IMG/VR virus record: IMGVR_UViG_3300021425_002252
Coordinates: 1 to 23,835 of that record
Strand: one strand, 5' to 3'
Origin: a virus
DNA length: 23,835 nt
Shown: positions 13,859 to 23,732 of the stretch, piece by piece
How the letters are laid out: each line of letters begins with the position of its first letter
Numbering within the stretch: the stretch's first letter is position 1
Made by a program: the position numbers and the translations under genes
Notes under the pieces: model-generated
Database searches by the model: none
Told to the model about the DNA's origin: nothing
What the model saw: the letters and a program-made list of their open reading frames with translations, nothing else

Positions 13859-14002
13859 ATGGGAATAATTTTAACAATTTTAATTTTACTAGGTTTTGGG
13901 TATATCTTTAGAGATACATTTGATAGTCCTAGTGGTTGTTTATCTACAATACTTTCGATTTTATTGTTAATTTATCTTACAAATTTATTATTTACTAGTT
14001 GA
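13859..14002 (+). CDS. 47-residue two-helix membrane protein
   Basis: Short gene, starting MGIILTILILLGFGYIF. Two hydrophobic segments (about residues 2-17 and 28-45) flank a polar turn RDTFDSPSGC, giving a helical hairpin in the membrane. AGG lies 5 bases before the ATG. It has its own sigma70-like promoter (13810-13837), so it is probably made early. Its TGA forms part of the -35 box of the next promoter. Small early membrane proteins of T4-type phages often act on host membrane functions, superinfection or lysis timing, but there is no specific match here. Confidence 0.6.
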   Translation: MGIILTILILLGFGYIFRDTFDSPSGCLSTILSILLLIYLTNLLFTS

Positions 14003-14026
14003 CAAATATAAAAAATTTGTTATAAT
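13999..14026 (+). promoter_or_regulatory. Sigma70-like promoter for the AAA+ ATPase
   Basis: TTGACA (13999-14004), a 16-base spacer, TATAAT (14021-14026). The -35 box contains the TGA stop codon of the 47-residue membrane protein. The leader carries the strong ribosome site GGGAGG. Confidence 0.82.
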
Positions 14027-14061
14027 ATACTTATATTTAAATAAAGCCGTGGGAGGCAAAT

Positions 14062-15102
14062 ATGAAAAATAGAGACTTTGTTAAGATTAAAAATGGCATA
14101 CACAGAAGTAAGCCAGTAACAAACGCAGTATTCCCTTTACTCAAAGGGGTAACATTTGGTAAACGTGGAGCATTTGTAACAGTTGATGCAACTGCTTTAA
14201 TGGGAGCCGAGTTCACAAAAATCAGAGTATTAGTTGATTCTCCAAGTGAAGTTGTTCCAGCAACTGAGCAAGAGTATAACAGTTTTATACCTGAAAACAT
14301 GAAGCCTAAAAAGAAAAAGGAAACTACCAAACAAGCAATGGACAGAATTGCTGAAAGATTTAGAATCCTTGATGAGATGACTGATGCAGTTGCTAACGGT
14401 GTTGTTAGAGGACTAATTGTATCAGGCCCTCCAGGAGTAGGTAAAAGTTTTGGTGTTGAAACTATACTTGAAGAGTATGATGCAATGGCAAAAATTGGTG
14501 GTAAAGTAAAAACTGAAATTGTAAAAGGTTCAATGACACCAATTGGTTTATATCAAACACTATTTAATAATAGTGCAGAAGGTGATATACTTGTATTTGA
14601 TGACTGTGATAGTGTGCTATTTGACGAAGTTTGTCTTAATATGCTTAAAGCGGTTTTAGACTCAGGTAAGAAAAGAACTATTAGTTGGAAAGCAGAATCT
14701 TCAGCACTAAGAAGAGAAGGAATACCTGATAGATTTGATTTTAAAGGTGGAGTTATCTTTATTACTAATGTGAACTTTGAAAATGTTAGAAGTAAAAAGA
14801 TACAAGATCACTTAGCCGCTCTTATGTCAAGATGTCACTACATTGATTTAGGAATGGATTCAATAGACGATAAGTTTATTAGAATTAACCAAATCATTAG
14901 AGATGGTATGCTTAAAGAGTATGGCTTTAGCAAGGAGTTCGAAAAAGAAATTGTTGACTTTATGCATGAGAACGCTCAGAGGCTCAGAGAGATATCATTA
15001 AGAATGGTACTCAAGATAGCCGACTTGGCAAAAATGAACTTTGATAACTGGAAGGGGTTAGCAAGGTCAACATGTATGACTAGGTTCGATATCTACTCGT
15101 AA
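14062..15102 (+). CDS. AAA+ family ATPase
   Basis: 346 residues. A basic N-terminal domain (1-90) precedes an AAA+ core: Walker A GPPGVGKS (122-129), Walker B ILVFDDCD (176-183), sensor-1 VIFITN (231-236) and a candidate arginine finger in ALMSRCHYIDL (about 249-259). A helical lid region follows (EIVDFMHENAQRLREISLRM). AAA+ proteins of this kind occur in many phages; roles range from DNA remodelling to chaperone-like activity, and none can be chosen here. It is an autonomous unit: a strong sigma70-like promoter (13999-14026), a very strong ribosome site GGGAGG 5 bases before ATG, and a structured 3' region with an intrinsic terminator. That 3' region carries a hairpin loop complementary to the ribosome site. 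Confidence 0.9.
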   Translation: MKNRDFVKIKNGIHRSKPVTNAVFPLLKGVTFGKRGAFVTVDATALMGAEFTKIRVLVDSPSEVVPATEQEYNSFIPENMKPKKKKETTKQAMDRIAERFRILDEMTDAVANGVVRGLIVSGPPGVGKSFGVETILEEYDAMAKIGGKVKTEIVKGSMTPIGLYQTLFNNSAEGDILVFDDCDSVLFDEVCLNMLKAVLDSGKKRTISWKAESSALRREGIPDRFDFKGGVIFITNVNFENVRSKKIQDHLAALMSRCHYIDLGMDSIDDKFIRINQIIRDGMLKEYGFSKEFEKEIVDFMHENAQRLREISLRMVLKIADLAKMNFDNWKGLARSTCMTRFDIYS

Positions 15103-15109
15103 AGTTTAG

Positions 15110-15136
15110 AGCCCTTAATAAATATTTTTAAGGGTT
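15110..15136 (+). other. First 3' hairpin after the ATPase gene
   Basis: CCCTTAA (15112-15118) pairs with TTAAGGG (15128-15134); the stem can extend to 9 pairs with one G-U. The loop is AT-only. It is followed by CCCC, not T, so it is not an intrinsic terminator. It contains AATAAATA (15117-15124), a late promoter-like sequence. Confidence 0.55.
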
Positions 15137-15205
15137 CCCCCTAGTGTTCAAAACCCTCCCACTTTGAACACGATTAGCCCCCAAATTTATTTGGGGGTTT
15201 CTTAT
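15130..15205 (+). ncRNA. Candidate small RNA or regulatory 3' UTR with an anti-Shine-Dalgarno loop
   Basis: A possible late promoter AATAAATA (15117-15124) would start RNA near 15130. The next element is a perfect 9-bp stem (GTGTTCAAA 15144-15152 with TTTGAACAC 15163-15171) closing a 10-base loop ACCCTCCCAC. Five bases later comes an intrinsic terminator. The loop's CCTCCCAC (15155-15162) is complementary over 8 bases to GTGGGAGG (14049-14056), the ribosome site of the ATPase gene just upstream. This is the architecture of a compact sRNA, seed loop plus terminator, but it could equally be a 3' UTR element of the ATPase mRNA. The promoter match could be chance in AT-rich DNA. Confidence 0.4.
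15176..15205 (+). terminator. Intrinsic terminator after the ATPase gene
   Basis: CCCCCAAA (15178-15185) and TTTGGGGG (15190-15197) form a perfect 8-bp stem, extendable to 10, with loop TTTA, followed by TTTCTTAT. It separates the ATPase unit from the receptor unit. Confidence 0.85.
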
Positions 15206-15214
15206 ATAAACCTC

Positions 15215-15242
15215 TTGACAAATTCTAATACCAATGTATAAT
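15215..15242 (+). promoter_or_regulatory. Sigma70-like promoter for the TonB-dependent receptor
   Basis: TTGACA (15215-15220), a 16-base spacer, TATAAT (15237-15242), directly after the terminator. Predicted start near 15249, leaving a leader of about 38 bases with GGAG at 15278-15281. Confidence 0.82.
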
Positions 15243-15286: not shown

Positions 15287-17260
15287 ATGAATTTTGAAGA
15301 TTTTTTTCATAAACACATATTAAAGATTACATTTATAATATGTTTACCGCTTCTTACTGCATGGGCATTTGCAGATGAAATAGAAGAAATTGTTGTGACA
15401 GCACAACAAGAAAAAACAATTAAAGCAGACCCAATTACTAGCAGTAGTTTAATGAGTGCTATAATGCCAGTCTTTACCTGGAATGCAGGTGGCTATGGCG
15501 GGTTTATTGGGTATAATGAAAGAGGTGCTCAAACATCACATACATCAGTTTATGTAAATGGTATTCCAGCAAACGACCCAGGTGCAAGTTGGTATGACTT
15601 TGGACATGACTTTGCTAGTGGCCAAACAGTTAAGGTTATATCTGGTGCTAATGGAGTTTTATACGGCTCAGGTAGTATGGCTGGAACAGTACTAATACAA
15701 GACACTATAGAACGTGGACTAACACTTAGAGCAGAGGATGAAGTAAACTATTTTAGAATTGCTCCTGTTGATCAGTTAGAGTTTAGTATGGTTAAAGATA
15801 GTATGGGTAGTGTTCGTAATGACAATGACGAAGAAGACAATTACGAAAACAAAACAGCAAGGTTTAATATAGATGCAGGAGACTTTAGTATTGTAGGTAA
15901 GTTTACTGAGTACGAATACGACTATGATAATTGTTATGATTATGACTTTGGGCAAAGTAACGACTGCTTACAAGACGGTCAAAGATATAATGTTGCTATT
16001 AGGAATGATTATATCACAATAGGCAGAAACTATAATACAGCAGAATACTTTACTGAATTAGAACCTACATATACAAATGAAAGTTATAGAGATTATTTTA
16101 GAATTGGTAATCAAGTAGAACTTAGTAATAGTTTGAATGTTGCATTTGGTATAGATGTAGAAAAACAGTATTATAATACAAGCAGTTGGCAAAATGTGGA
16201 AGGTACTGAAACAGTTTTAGTAAGTGATACAAGACCAGGCTCCTATACAGATGACAATTTAAGTTATAATGATGGTACATTATTACCTTTATGGAATGGT
16301 ACAATAGAACCTGATCTTGATAATGCATATGAAGTTGTACAAGGAAACGGTGTATATACCCTAACACAATTAGATGAAAAACATTCAGATGAAAATGGAG
16401 GTATATATTTTCAAGCCAATGCTAACTTTATACTAAATTATAACTTTGGTATTAGACTAGGTAATGATGATCAGAATGCTCTTAGACTGGGTATAGAAAA
16501 AGGAGACTTCTTTTTTAACATTGGTAACAGTTTTAGAAAAGCAAACTTATATGAAAAGTTTGGTGATGGAGTTGTACAAGGCAATGAGGAACTAGAGCCT
16601 GAAAAAGGTGTAGGTGTTGAATTAGGATATGGTGTATTAAGTGTATTCATGTATGATTTTGAAGAAGCAATAGAATATGTTCCAGGATATTATACAGATG
16701 TTATTACAGCAACATTGGAACTTAATGCTGATTTATCTGTAAATAAAGACGGCACATATGGTGGTTGTGTATTAGATCCTAATTATACAGCATCAGATGG
16801 TATGCCATTAGGTTGTGTTTACACATTAGTAGAAGATAATAATCCAGTTTATACTATGCCTACCTATGCTAACACAGGAGAATACACCACAGCAGGTATG
16901 AGATATGCAAATAACTTTGGTCCTCTTTTTGTAATGTTAAAATATACAGATACAGATCAAACCAGAGTACCTAAATTTGCTGGTGTATTACAATACAGCG
17001 AAGACTTTTTTAATGTAAACTTTAGAATAAAGTATGCATTTAATTTAGATAGAGCACCTGGACCTTATGATGTATTAGAAGAAGGACAGGAGTATTTAGA
17101 AGACTTGAATAAGTTAAACTTGTATGTGACAAAACAGTTTACAAATGGTTTAACAATTTCCTTTAAAGCAGAAAACATAACAGACGAAGTAGTAGAAGTT
17201 GTTCCTTTTTATAATACACAAGGTACAGAATATTACTTGACATTAGGGTACACTTGGTAG
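15287..17260 (+). CDS. TonB-dependent outer-membrane receptor, phage-encoded
   Basis: 657 residues from ATG 15287, chosen because GGAG lies 5 bases upstream; a TTG 27 bases earlier is less likely. Residues 1-29 form a sec signal peptide (basic start, hydrophobic ITFIICLPLLTAWAF, cleavage after AFA). EEIVVTAQ (33-40) is a TonB box. Residues about 50-140 form the plug, with NERGAQTSHTSVYVNGIP and VISGANGVLYGSGSMAGTVL matching the family's conserved blocks. The rest is Tyr/Asn/Asp-rich beta-barrel, with paired cysteines in two probable extracellular loops, ending YYLTLGYTW with a terminal aromatic residue as outer-membrane barrels do. No truncation is visible. Substrate is unknown; size is BtuB-like. 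It has its own promoter right after a terminator and reads into uvsW. Possible roles: nutrient uptake during infection, or blocking superinfection. Confidence 0.93.
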   Translation: MNFEDFFHKHILKITFIICLPLLTAWAFADEIEEIVVTAQQEKTIKADPITSSSLMSAIMPVFTWNAGGYGGFIGYNERGAQTSHTSVYVNGIPANDPGASWYDFGHDFASGQTVKVISGANGVLYGSGSMAGTVLIQDTIERGLTLRAEDEVNYFRIAPVDQLEFSMVKDSMGSVRNDNDEEDNYENKTARFNIDAGDFSIVGKFTEYEYDYDNCYDYDFGQSNDCLQDGQRYNVAIRNDYITIGRNYNTAEYFTELEPTYTNESYRDYFRIGNQVELSNSLNVAFGIDVEKQYYNTSSWQNVEGTETVLVSDTRPGSYTDDNLSYNDGTLLPLWNGTIEPDLDNAYEVVQGNGVYTLTQLDEKHSDENGGIYFQANANFILNYNFGIRLGNDDQNALRLGIEKGDFFFNIGNSFRKANLYEKFGDGVVQGNEELEPEKGVGVELGYGVLSVFMYDFEEAIEYVPGYYTDVITATLELNADLSVNKDGTYGGCVLDPNYTASDGMPLGCVYTLVEDNNPVYTMPTYANTGEYTTAGMRYANNFGPLFVMLKYTDTDQTRVPKFAGVLQYSEDFFNVNFRIKYAFNLDRAPGPYDVLEEGQEYLEDLNKLNLYVTKQFTNGLTISFKAENITDEVVEVVPFYNTQGTEYYLTLGYTW

Positions 17261-22107: not shown

Positions 22108-23202
22108 ATGTACGAATTTACAAGTGAGAGTGTTAGTAAAGGGCACCCAGATAAGATAGCAGACCAAATATCAGATGCTGTAGCAACATATCTTATAGAT
22201 AAAAATATATCACATAGAGCGGCTGTAGAAACTTTAGTTACTACAAATATGGTTACACTTGCTGGAGAATATAAAAGCGATAAGTTTGATAAAATATATA
22301 TTGAAAAACTTATACGGGCTATAATAAGAGATATTGGCTATGAGCAAACCGGGTTCCATTGGGAAAAGTTAAAAGTTTACAATGAACTACATGGACAAAG
22401 TCCAGATATTGCACTAGGCACAGACGATTTCGGAGCAGGAGATCAAGGTATCATGTTTGGATATGCATGTAATGAAACTCCTAATAATATGCCTAGTGCA
22501 ATTTATTACAGTCATGAAATATTAAAGGCATTAGACAATGCCAGAACAAATGGTGCAACATGGCTAGGTCCAGATAGTAAAGCTCAGGTAACCTATTTTT
22601 ATGACAGTATTGGCAAGCCAATGTACATTAAATCTATTGTATGTAGCACTCAGCATAGTGAAGACTTAGATATAGAAGAGGTTAGAGAACGTGTAATAGA
22701 TATCATTTTGCCTGTAGTAAAAGATCAAATTCATGTACTTAAAACGGTATGGCATATAAATCCTACAGGCAGATTTGTAATTGGTGGTCCTGATGGAGAC
22801 ACAGGACTAACAGGAAGAAAAATTGTTGTAGACACTTATGGGGGATATGCTCCACATGGTGGAGGTGCCTTTAGTGGAAAAGATTGCACTAAGGTAGACA
22901 GGAGTGCCGCCTATATGGCCAGATACTTGGCAAATAATGTTGTAGGTTGTGGACAAGCAGATAACTGTACTGTACAATTAAGTTATGCTATAGGTATAAA
23001 AGAGCCTACTAGTGTATATGTTTATGCTGATGGAGAAGTTAGAGACGACTTATCAGAAAGTATTATAGATAAAGTAGACTTAACTCCTAAAGGTATAATT
23101 GATAAGTTTGACCTATTTAATTTAGATTTAACTAAAACAACTAATTATGGTCATTTTGGTAAAAGTGACATGTTATGGGAAAGAATAAATTTATGGACAT
23201 AA
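22108..23202 (+). CDS. metK: S-adenosylmethionine synthetase
   Basis: 364 residues; E. coli MetK is 384. The signature FTSESVSKGHPDKIADQISD (residues 4-23) holds His13 and Asp15 of the ATP/Mg site. Further motifs are GAGDQGIMFGY (109-119), PTGRFVIGGPDGDTGLTGRK (219-238) and GGGAFSGKD (251-259). The C-terminus NYGHFGKSD matches the family end, so it looks complete but trimmed. It condenses ATP and methionine to SAM, phosphate and pyrophosphate in the cytoplasm. Products could supply methylation or polyamine synthesis. AGGA lies upstream and the 3' end overlaps apt by 10 bases, pairing SAM supply with adenine salvage. Confidence 0.97.
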   Translation: MYEFTSESVSKGHPDKIADQISDAVATYLIDKNISHRAAVETLVTTNMVTLAGEYKSDKFDKIYIEKLIRAIIRDIGYEQTGFHWEKLKVYNELHGQSPDIALGTDDFGAGDQGIMFGYACNETPNNMPSAIYYSHEILKALDNARTNGATWLGPDSKAQVTYFYDSIGKPMYIKSIVCSTQHSEDLDIEEVRERVIDIILPVVKDQIHVLKTVWHINPTGRFVIGGPDGDTGLTGRKIVVDTYGGYAPHGGGAFSGKDCTKVDRSAAYMARYLANNVVGCGQADNCTVQLSYAIGIKEPTSVYVYADGEVRDDLSESIIDKVDLTPKGIIDKFDLFNLDLTKTTNYGHFGKSDMLWERINLWT

Positions 23203-23732
23203 AAGAAAGTATTAGAACAGTTCCTGATTTTCCTATAGAAGGAATACAGTTCAGGGATATTACAAGCCTATTAGAAAGCCCAGAAGCTCTTAATAAAGCA
23301 CTTATAGACATGACTGCTAGTTGTATGATGTTTAAAGCAACAAAAATTGTAGCAATAGAAAGCAGAGGGTTTATTTTTAGTTCTCCAATTGCTAGAGATA
23401 TGGAGTTACCTTTAATACTTGCAAGAAAGCCTGGTAAATTACCTAACCCTACATATCAAAGAAGTTATAAGTTAGAATACGGAGAAACATCGCTACACAT
23501 ACAGCAAAATTCAAATTTAAAGCCTAATGATAAAATTGTTATTATAGATGACTTGATTGCAACAGGTGGTACAGCCACAGCAATAGCAAGTTTAATTTGC
23601 CAATGTTGGAATATACCTAGAGAAAATATTTTAATTCTGGCCGCAATAGACTTGCCCGATTTAGGTGGAAGTGCTATAATAAAAGAAGCAGGATTTAATG
23701 TAGAAACATTAATAGAGTTTGAAGGAGAATAA
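23193..23732 (+). CDS. apt: Adenine phosphoribosyltransferase
   Basis: 179 residues from ATG 23193 (an in-frame ATG at 23175 would give 185). It starts MDIKESIRTVPDFPIEGIQF, then FRDITSLL, ESRGFIFSSPIA (56-67), ARKPGKLP and the PRPP loop IVIIDDLIATGGTATA (115-130), all in the order of bacterial Apt. It converts adenine and PRPP to AMP and pyrophosphate. Next to metK it would recover adenine released when SAM products such as methylthioadenosine are broken down; this link is inference. It overlaps metK by 10 bases and is followed after 2 bases by a small membrane gene. The start is not settled, as both candidates have weak ribosome sites. Confidence 0.93.
   Translation: MDIKESIRTVPDFPIEGIQFRDITSLLESPEALNKALIDMTASCMMFKATKIVAIESRGFIFSSPIARDMELPLILARKPGKLPNPTYQRSYKLEYGETSLHIQQNSNLKPNDKIVIIDDLIATGGTATAIASLICQCWNIPRENILILAAIDLPDLGGSAIIKEAGFNVETLIEFEGE

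Follow-up and report, generated by a model that had tools for sequence, protein, structure and literature searches.

Co-evolving complementarity between the translation start and the 3′ UTR of an ATPase gene in T4-related phages, with a possible role in self-repression

Sib retroregulation of the lambda int gene is a case in which a downstream RNA element controls an upstream gene, with RNase III processing of a 3′ hairpin, and in RNA phages long-distance pairing within the RNA genome hides a start site. In bacteria, pairing between the two ends of one mRNA has been described. The 3′ UTR of icaR from Staphylococcus aureus carries a UCCCCUG motif that pairs with the Shine-Dalgarno sequence of its own mRNA; experiments showed that this keeps ribosomes from loading and favours cleavage by RNase III (Ruiz de los Mozos et al. 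2013, PMC3868564). A 14-nt pairing between the 5′ and 3′ UTRs of hbs in Bacillus subtilis protects the mRNA from RNase Y, according to the account of Braun et al. 2017 given in PMC7821165, and RNAIII of S. aureus pairs its own ends (PMC7821165). In reviews, the bacterial examples named for such 5′/3′ UTR contacts are icaR, hbs and RNAIII, with no verdict on how widespread the phenomenon is (PMC7821165). No phage report of such self-pairing was found in the open-access literature.

The phage ATPase gene described here is, as far as its anatomy can tell, arranged to work like icaR. A motif in the 3′ UTR faces the start region of the same mRNA, with a complement of at least 7 nt in 112 of 113 distinct cases. 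The compensatory changes in icaR were made by mutagenesis, whereas the phage pairing is supported by natural compensatory changes between clades. Moreover, icaR is a bacterial repressor gene, and the phage system is unrelated to it in sequence and not homologous. Unlike the icaR motif, the phage element lies in a covarying hairpin, in a pseudoknot or at the stop codon. Its pairing sequences differ from clade to clade, the start codon is the target in one of them, and there are no data on repression or RNase III cleavage. The likeness to hbs lies in the long-range pairing of two ends of one mRNA, but the phage pairing covers the ribosome-loading site. RNAIII and other small RNAs with C-rich loops also direct such a loop against a Shine-Dalgarno sequence, as the hairpin clades of the phages alone would do; however, those RNAs act on other mRNAs in trans, and the only target found for the phage element is its own start. 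The sib element shares the logic of a downstream phage RNA element and an upstream gene but lacks complementarity to a ribosome site, and the RNA-phage interactions hide a start by distant pairing but do so in an RNA genome.

The ATPase gene, its transcript and the match in one genome

The whole stretch of DNA analysed, referred to as the window, is a 23.8-kb virus record with the T4-type genes terminase, UvsX, a gp32-like protein and a UvsW-like helicase. Judged by terminase, its closest cultured relatives are PA5oct-like Pseudomonas phages (59% identity). The features of the ATPase locus are as follows.

13,999–14,026, + strand: sigma-70-type promoter TTGACA-N16-TATAAT of the ATPase gene (12 of 12 consensus letters)
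14,049–14,056, + strand: 5′ element GTGGGAGG in the Shine-Dalgarno region, target of the 3′ element
14,062–15,102, + strand: AAA ATPase gene of the T4 nrdC.10 family, 346 aa (phrog_1250, E = 7e-87; nrdC.10 homologues by tblastn)
15,109–15,137, + strand: hairpin 1, CCCTTAA...TTAAGGG with TAAATA in the loop, missing in part of the clade
15,144–15,171, + strand: hairpin 2 with the 3′ element in its loop; the stem covaries in relatives
15,155–15,162, + strand: 3′ element CCTCCCAC, complement of the start region
15,176–15,199, + strand: intrinsic terminator hairpin and T-rich tail, end of the predicted one-gene transcript

The ATPase gave a full-length profile match to phrog_1250 (residues 7–339). 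Its AlphaFold model was of low confidence (pLDDT 71, pTM 0.43), and a profile search for a PDB relative of the protein found none. Both transcript limits were demonstrably recurrent patterns: the promoter kept 11–12 of the 12 consensus letters in 108 of 113 relatives, and a terminator-like site was present in 109 of 113. Since the gene has its own promoter and its own terminator, the predicted ATPase transcript comprises a single gene, running from ~30 nt ahead of the start codon (predicted 5′ UTR of about 25–30 nt) to ~100 nt past the stop codon.

Several other genes of the window were of separate interest. The product of the gene next after the ATPase (15,287–17,260) contains the Plug domain of TonB-dependent receptors (Pfam, E = 1e-8), which is unusual in a phage, and the gene has its own perfect TTGACA-N16-TATAAT promoter at 15,215–15,242. 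Three host-like metabolic genes, judged from their translations only, resembled an acyl carrier protein (1,638–1,856), an S-adenosylmethionine synthetase (22,108–23,202) and an adenine phosphoribosyltransferase (23,175–23,732). At four genes including the large terminase (2,286, 2,768, 5,460 and 7,736), ATAAATAG ends only a few bases ahead of the start codon, with little or no Shine-Dalgarno sequence; with T4-type late-promoter motifs placed by the ATG in this way, the late mRNAs would be nearly leaderless.

The first-pass annotation had pointed to the complementarity between the hairpin loop after the ATPase gene and the ribosome site of that gene, while cautioning that a complement to Shine-Dalgarno-type sequence is easily obtained, and both statements held. 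The loop element CCTCCCAC (15,155–15,162) is the exact reverse complement of GTGGGAGG (14,049–14,056), and the segment 15,144–15,171 reads GTGTTCAAA-ACCCTCCCAC-TTTGAACAC, in which a perfect stem of 9 bp closes a loop of 10 nt. On the + strand of the window, GTGGGAGG and GGGAGG each occur once. As a control, 215 other genes from the window and related contigs were inspected for a match between start region and 3′ flank; 4 had at least 8 nt and 26 at least 7 nt, mostly AT-rich and off-centre from the ribosome site. A single match in one genome is therefore weak evidence. The 8-nt match in the window alone is only mildly unusual, and its significance comes from the comparative evidence.

Compensatory changes and the shift of target among relatives

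IMG/VR was scanned with four family members, and both UTRs could be taken from 296 loci, which included 118 distinct ones. Of these distinct loci, 113 belong to a large group of uncultured, mostly marine, T4-related phages, reaching down to ~63% identity to the window protein. A search of genome contigs gave no relative, and the window had no Rfam match at the gathering threshold. Pairing was scored as a perfect helix between the start region (−28 to +14) and the first 100 nt past the gene's own stop codon. By this measure, complements of at least 7 nt were observed in 112 of the 113 distinct UTR pairs and of at least 8 nt in 102, with a maximum of 12; the sole exception (L221) has 7 bp including one G-U pair. 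In two variants (L012 and L038) one pair is lost in the 5′ element with the 3′ side unchanged, and pairs flanking the core helix often fail to form in relatives.

Covariation of the loop and the ribosome site in related phages, proposed beforehand as a check on the idea, proved strongly positive. The two sides were found rewritten together as GUGGGAGG/CCUCCCAC, as CUGUAGGAG/CUCCUACAG (L156 and L250, a single clade with support 99/100), as GUGGGAGAAC/GUUCUCCCAC (L143), as UGUGGGAGA/UCUCCCACA (L088), as GGGGAGG/CCUCCCC (L300) and as GUAGGAG/CUCCUAC. The pair GGGGAUGAC(UAA)/(UUA)GUCAUCCCC occurs in L182, L197 and others within a 32-member clade (support 100/100). In this clade, the 3′ element pairs with the Shine-Dalgarno sequence in some members and with the start codon in others: L157, L160, L171, L175–L179, L181 and L212 have GAUGACUAAC/GUUAGUCAUC with the start codon as target, and in L173, L174 and L196 the 3′ element is paired with AUGACUAAC, again at the start codon. 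About 3–4 changes of target label are needed on the tree of the clade. The compensatory changes thus reach the start codon as well as sequence that is not of Shine-Dalgarno type (AUGAC, UGU). The target had earlier been given as the Shine-Dalgarno site, which is accurate for many relatives and too narrow for those that target the start codon instead. What is constant across the clade, to judge from these sequences, is that the translation start is covered, whether by pairing with the Shine-Dalgarno sequence or with the start codon.

When an 8-bp core was compared in a common register, 89.5% of positions were paired; with the 3′ elements exchanged at random across the 74 distinct pairs, the figure was 79.5% (sd 1.2%). 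None of 2000 such shuffles was as high as the observed value, with relatedness uncorrected. What chiefly carries the argument is the set of discrete compensatory changes on branches with good support, together with the move to a new target. Co-evolution that maintains a pairing between the 5′ and 3′ elements is well supported; that the pairing forms in cells is an inference.

Two earlier results were set aside. Six loci (L157, L160, L171 and L175–L177) were scored without pairing in a first pass, a result that was overturned when extension of the 5′ window past the start codon revealed pairing with AUGACUAAC. Best-duplex energies with a free register were confounded by terminator stems and left the ranking of own against swapped partners unclear, and the anchored and perfect-helix measures were used instead.

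Among cultured homologues, no comparable pairing was seen in CC31, LPCS28, ZZ1, Vibrio phage 1.081.O, Atu_ph07, VAP7 and TSW001, nor in T4-type phages, where for T4 nrdC.10 itself only the 3′ flank was examined. The nearest cultured relatives, PA5oct (L162) and Paride (L352), have an 8-nt match of AGUAGCAU in the start region to AUGCUACU in the 3′ UTR. There, AUGCUACU doubles as one arm of a local hairpin, and the two genomes are too alike for covariation; the match may be a remote version of the ATPase arrangement, or chance.

RNA context of the 3′ element and its linkage to the gene

The 3′ UTR of the window folds into three hairpins, the second of which holds the 3′ element in its loop. Covariation of its stem was evident among relatives, with 100% of cells paired and both-side changes in 4 of 8 pairs. 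In a sister clade, the 3′ element instead lies within a predicted H-type pseudoknot formed by CUAACR/YGUUAG and GGUGCUC/GAGCACC (L160-type 3′ UTRs), the helices of which are 99.6% paired with both-side changes in 3 pairs. The first helix, CUAACR/YGUUAG, overlaps the anti-start element, and this overlap could, if the predicted fold is right, act as a switch. Other lineages, about 45 of the 113, have no hairpin and carry the element 0–9 nt past the stop codon, where a terminating ribosome is expected, by inference, to cover it.

Retention of the hairpin with loss of the complementarity had been named as the outcome that would refute the regulatory idea. The reverse was observed: relatives that lack the hairpin still have the complementarity. 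What evolution has conserved is thus the complementarity, for which the hairpin is one mode of presentation. The perfect presentation by a hairpin, earlier stressed as a reason for interest, accordingly stands for some clades and is not the core of the system, as other clades do without it.

Two further motifs were noted in this region. An invariant C-run, CCCCCT[A/G]G, directly precedes hairpin 2 (15,137–15,143) in 17 of 17 distinct hairpin-clade sequences and could pair with the G-run of the terminator. TAAATA at 15,117–15,123, often in the hairpin-1 loop of relatives, might be a late promoter giving rise to a separate 3′ RNA, for which there are no RNA data.

In the contigs searched, the element was linked to the ATPase gene exclusively or nearly so. 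A 35-nt hairpin pattern matched 31 contigs, in all 31 directly after the ATPase gene. The 8-mer GTGGGAGG has exactly two copies, at both ends of the ATPase gene, in contigs of 45.9, 44.5 and 58.6 kb; a 250.5-kb contig has three, the third antisense inside a coding frame. The same two-ends pattern was found for GGGGATGAC in 5 of 6 contigs of its own clade, the sixth being a start-codon-type member, and for CTCCTACAG in its own three contigs. No second start-site target for the 3′ element was seen in the related viral contigs examined (host mRNAs were outside the scope), which favours self-regulation.

Proposed self-repression and its alternatives

Given that the Shine-Dalgarno sequence or the start codon is covered in all lineages, repression of initiation is the best explanation, and we consider it probable that the ATPase mRNA represses its own translation through pairing of its 5′ and 3′ UTRs. 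In the proposed mechanism, once the 3′ UTR is made, the 3′ element would pair with the ribosome-loading site of its own message (8 bp in the window, 7–12 bp in relatives), closing the message into a near-circle and blocking initiation. The start would be open before the 3′ UTR is synthesized, or while ribosomes keep loading. The mRNA would then be translated mostly during its own transcription and shut afterwards, and the early-type ATPase product would be kept limited in amount. Repression, intramolecular action and timing are all inferred. The duplex of the two elements was calculated at −14.6 kcal/mol, with opening costs of 3.1 (5′ side) and 0.0 (3′ side), and that of the Shine-Dalgarno sequence with the 16S tail at −10.2 kcal/mol; by these figures the 3′ element is able to compete with the ribosome, subject to the entropic cost of a 1.1-kb loop. 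Scrambling the 3′ element in the window mRNA lowered the predicted long-range pairing from 0.59 to <0.002. Full-mRNA folding of L156, L250, L057 and L024 did not predict the long-range helix; RNA folding models handle loops of ~1 kb poorly.

Complementarity by itself says nothing on the sign of the effect, and the hbs pairing in B. subtilis protects its mRNA. Action in trans by a separate short RNA and an effect on mRNA stability are consequently live rivals to initiation repression. The first-pass annotation had suggested that the 3′ end folds back on the ATPase start or acts on it in trans; the covariation supports the interaction and leaves cis or trans undecided. A small RNA from the 3′ UTR, either cleaved or made from its own late promoter, would bind other ATPase mRNAs and give a late shut-off. 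The hairpin-clade module does resemble a small RNA, with a presented C-rich loop followed by a terminator, and of 49 distinct 3′ UTRs, 25 have TAAATA, the T4-type late promoter core, past the stop codon and ahead of the element, where shuffled sequences would give 5.6; ATAAATA also stands ahead of several window genes. We nevertheless regard this reading as unlikely, since the 3′ element is always joined to its own target gene (31/31), related contigs yielded no second target site, about 45 relatives carry the element 0–9 nt past the stop codon without a hairpin, and TAAATA is absent in about half of the sequences, which as relatives are not independent. Joined ends might instead shield the 5′ end from decay or offer a substrate for RNase III, without a direct block to ribosomes. 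The pairing site, ~20 nt from the predicted 5′ end, would suit such a role, and there are precedents in hbs, guarded against RNase Y, and icaR, where pairing also brings RNase III cleavage (PMC7821165, PMC3868564). An effect on stability alone, however, would not need the Shine-Dalgarno sequence or start codon to be covered always despite full sequence change, and we judge it a rather unlikely explanation.

Two readings that need no RNA interaction were given hardly any weight. GTGGGAGG and CCTCCCAC are inverted copies flanking the gene and could as DNA be sites for a DNA-binding protein or for gene inversion; yet the copies change together and move to the start codon, one of them forms part of a hairpin loop closed by a stem that covaries as RNA, and the conserved DNA stops at the paired letters, making this highly improbable. 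Chance, or separate reasons for keeping a strong Shine-Dalgarno sequence and a C-rich loop, would draw on the complementarity by composition of a purine-rich and a C-rich sequence, such that 26 of 215 unrelated genes reach 7 nt. This reading is refuted by the covariation, since the compensatory changes extend to AUGAC, UGU and even the start codon and no shuffle out of 2000 matched the observed pairing, and is left with next to no credence. A more elaborate scheme retains self-repression as one of two stages: a cis throttle in the early mRNA, followed by a late short RNA, started at the T4-type late promoter TAAATA in hairpin 1, that would silence leftover ATPase mRNA in trans. In the sister clade, competition of the CUAACR/YGUUAG helix with the anti-start element would permit release controlled by a signal or protein. 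We view this two-way switch as speculative and decidedly unlikely.

Only a few bacterial genes, most of them in Firmicutes, are known to repress themselves through 5′/3′ UTR pairing, and the ATPase arrangement would add an example from a DNA phage, backed by strong evolutionary evidence. Its pairing is kept down to ~63% protein identity while the sequence, the RNA context and the exact target have all been rewritten, and the natural compensatory pairs are material for swap experiments. If the repression proposed here holds, it would mark this conserved ATPase of the T4 family, whose function is unknown, as a protein whose amount phages keep in check.
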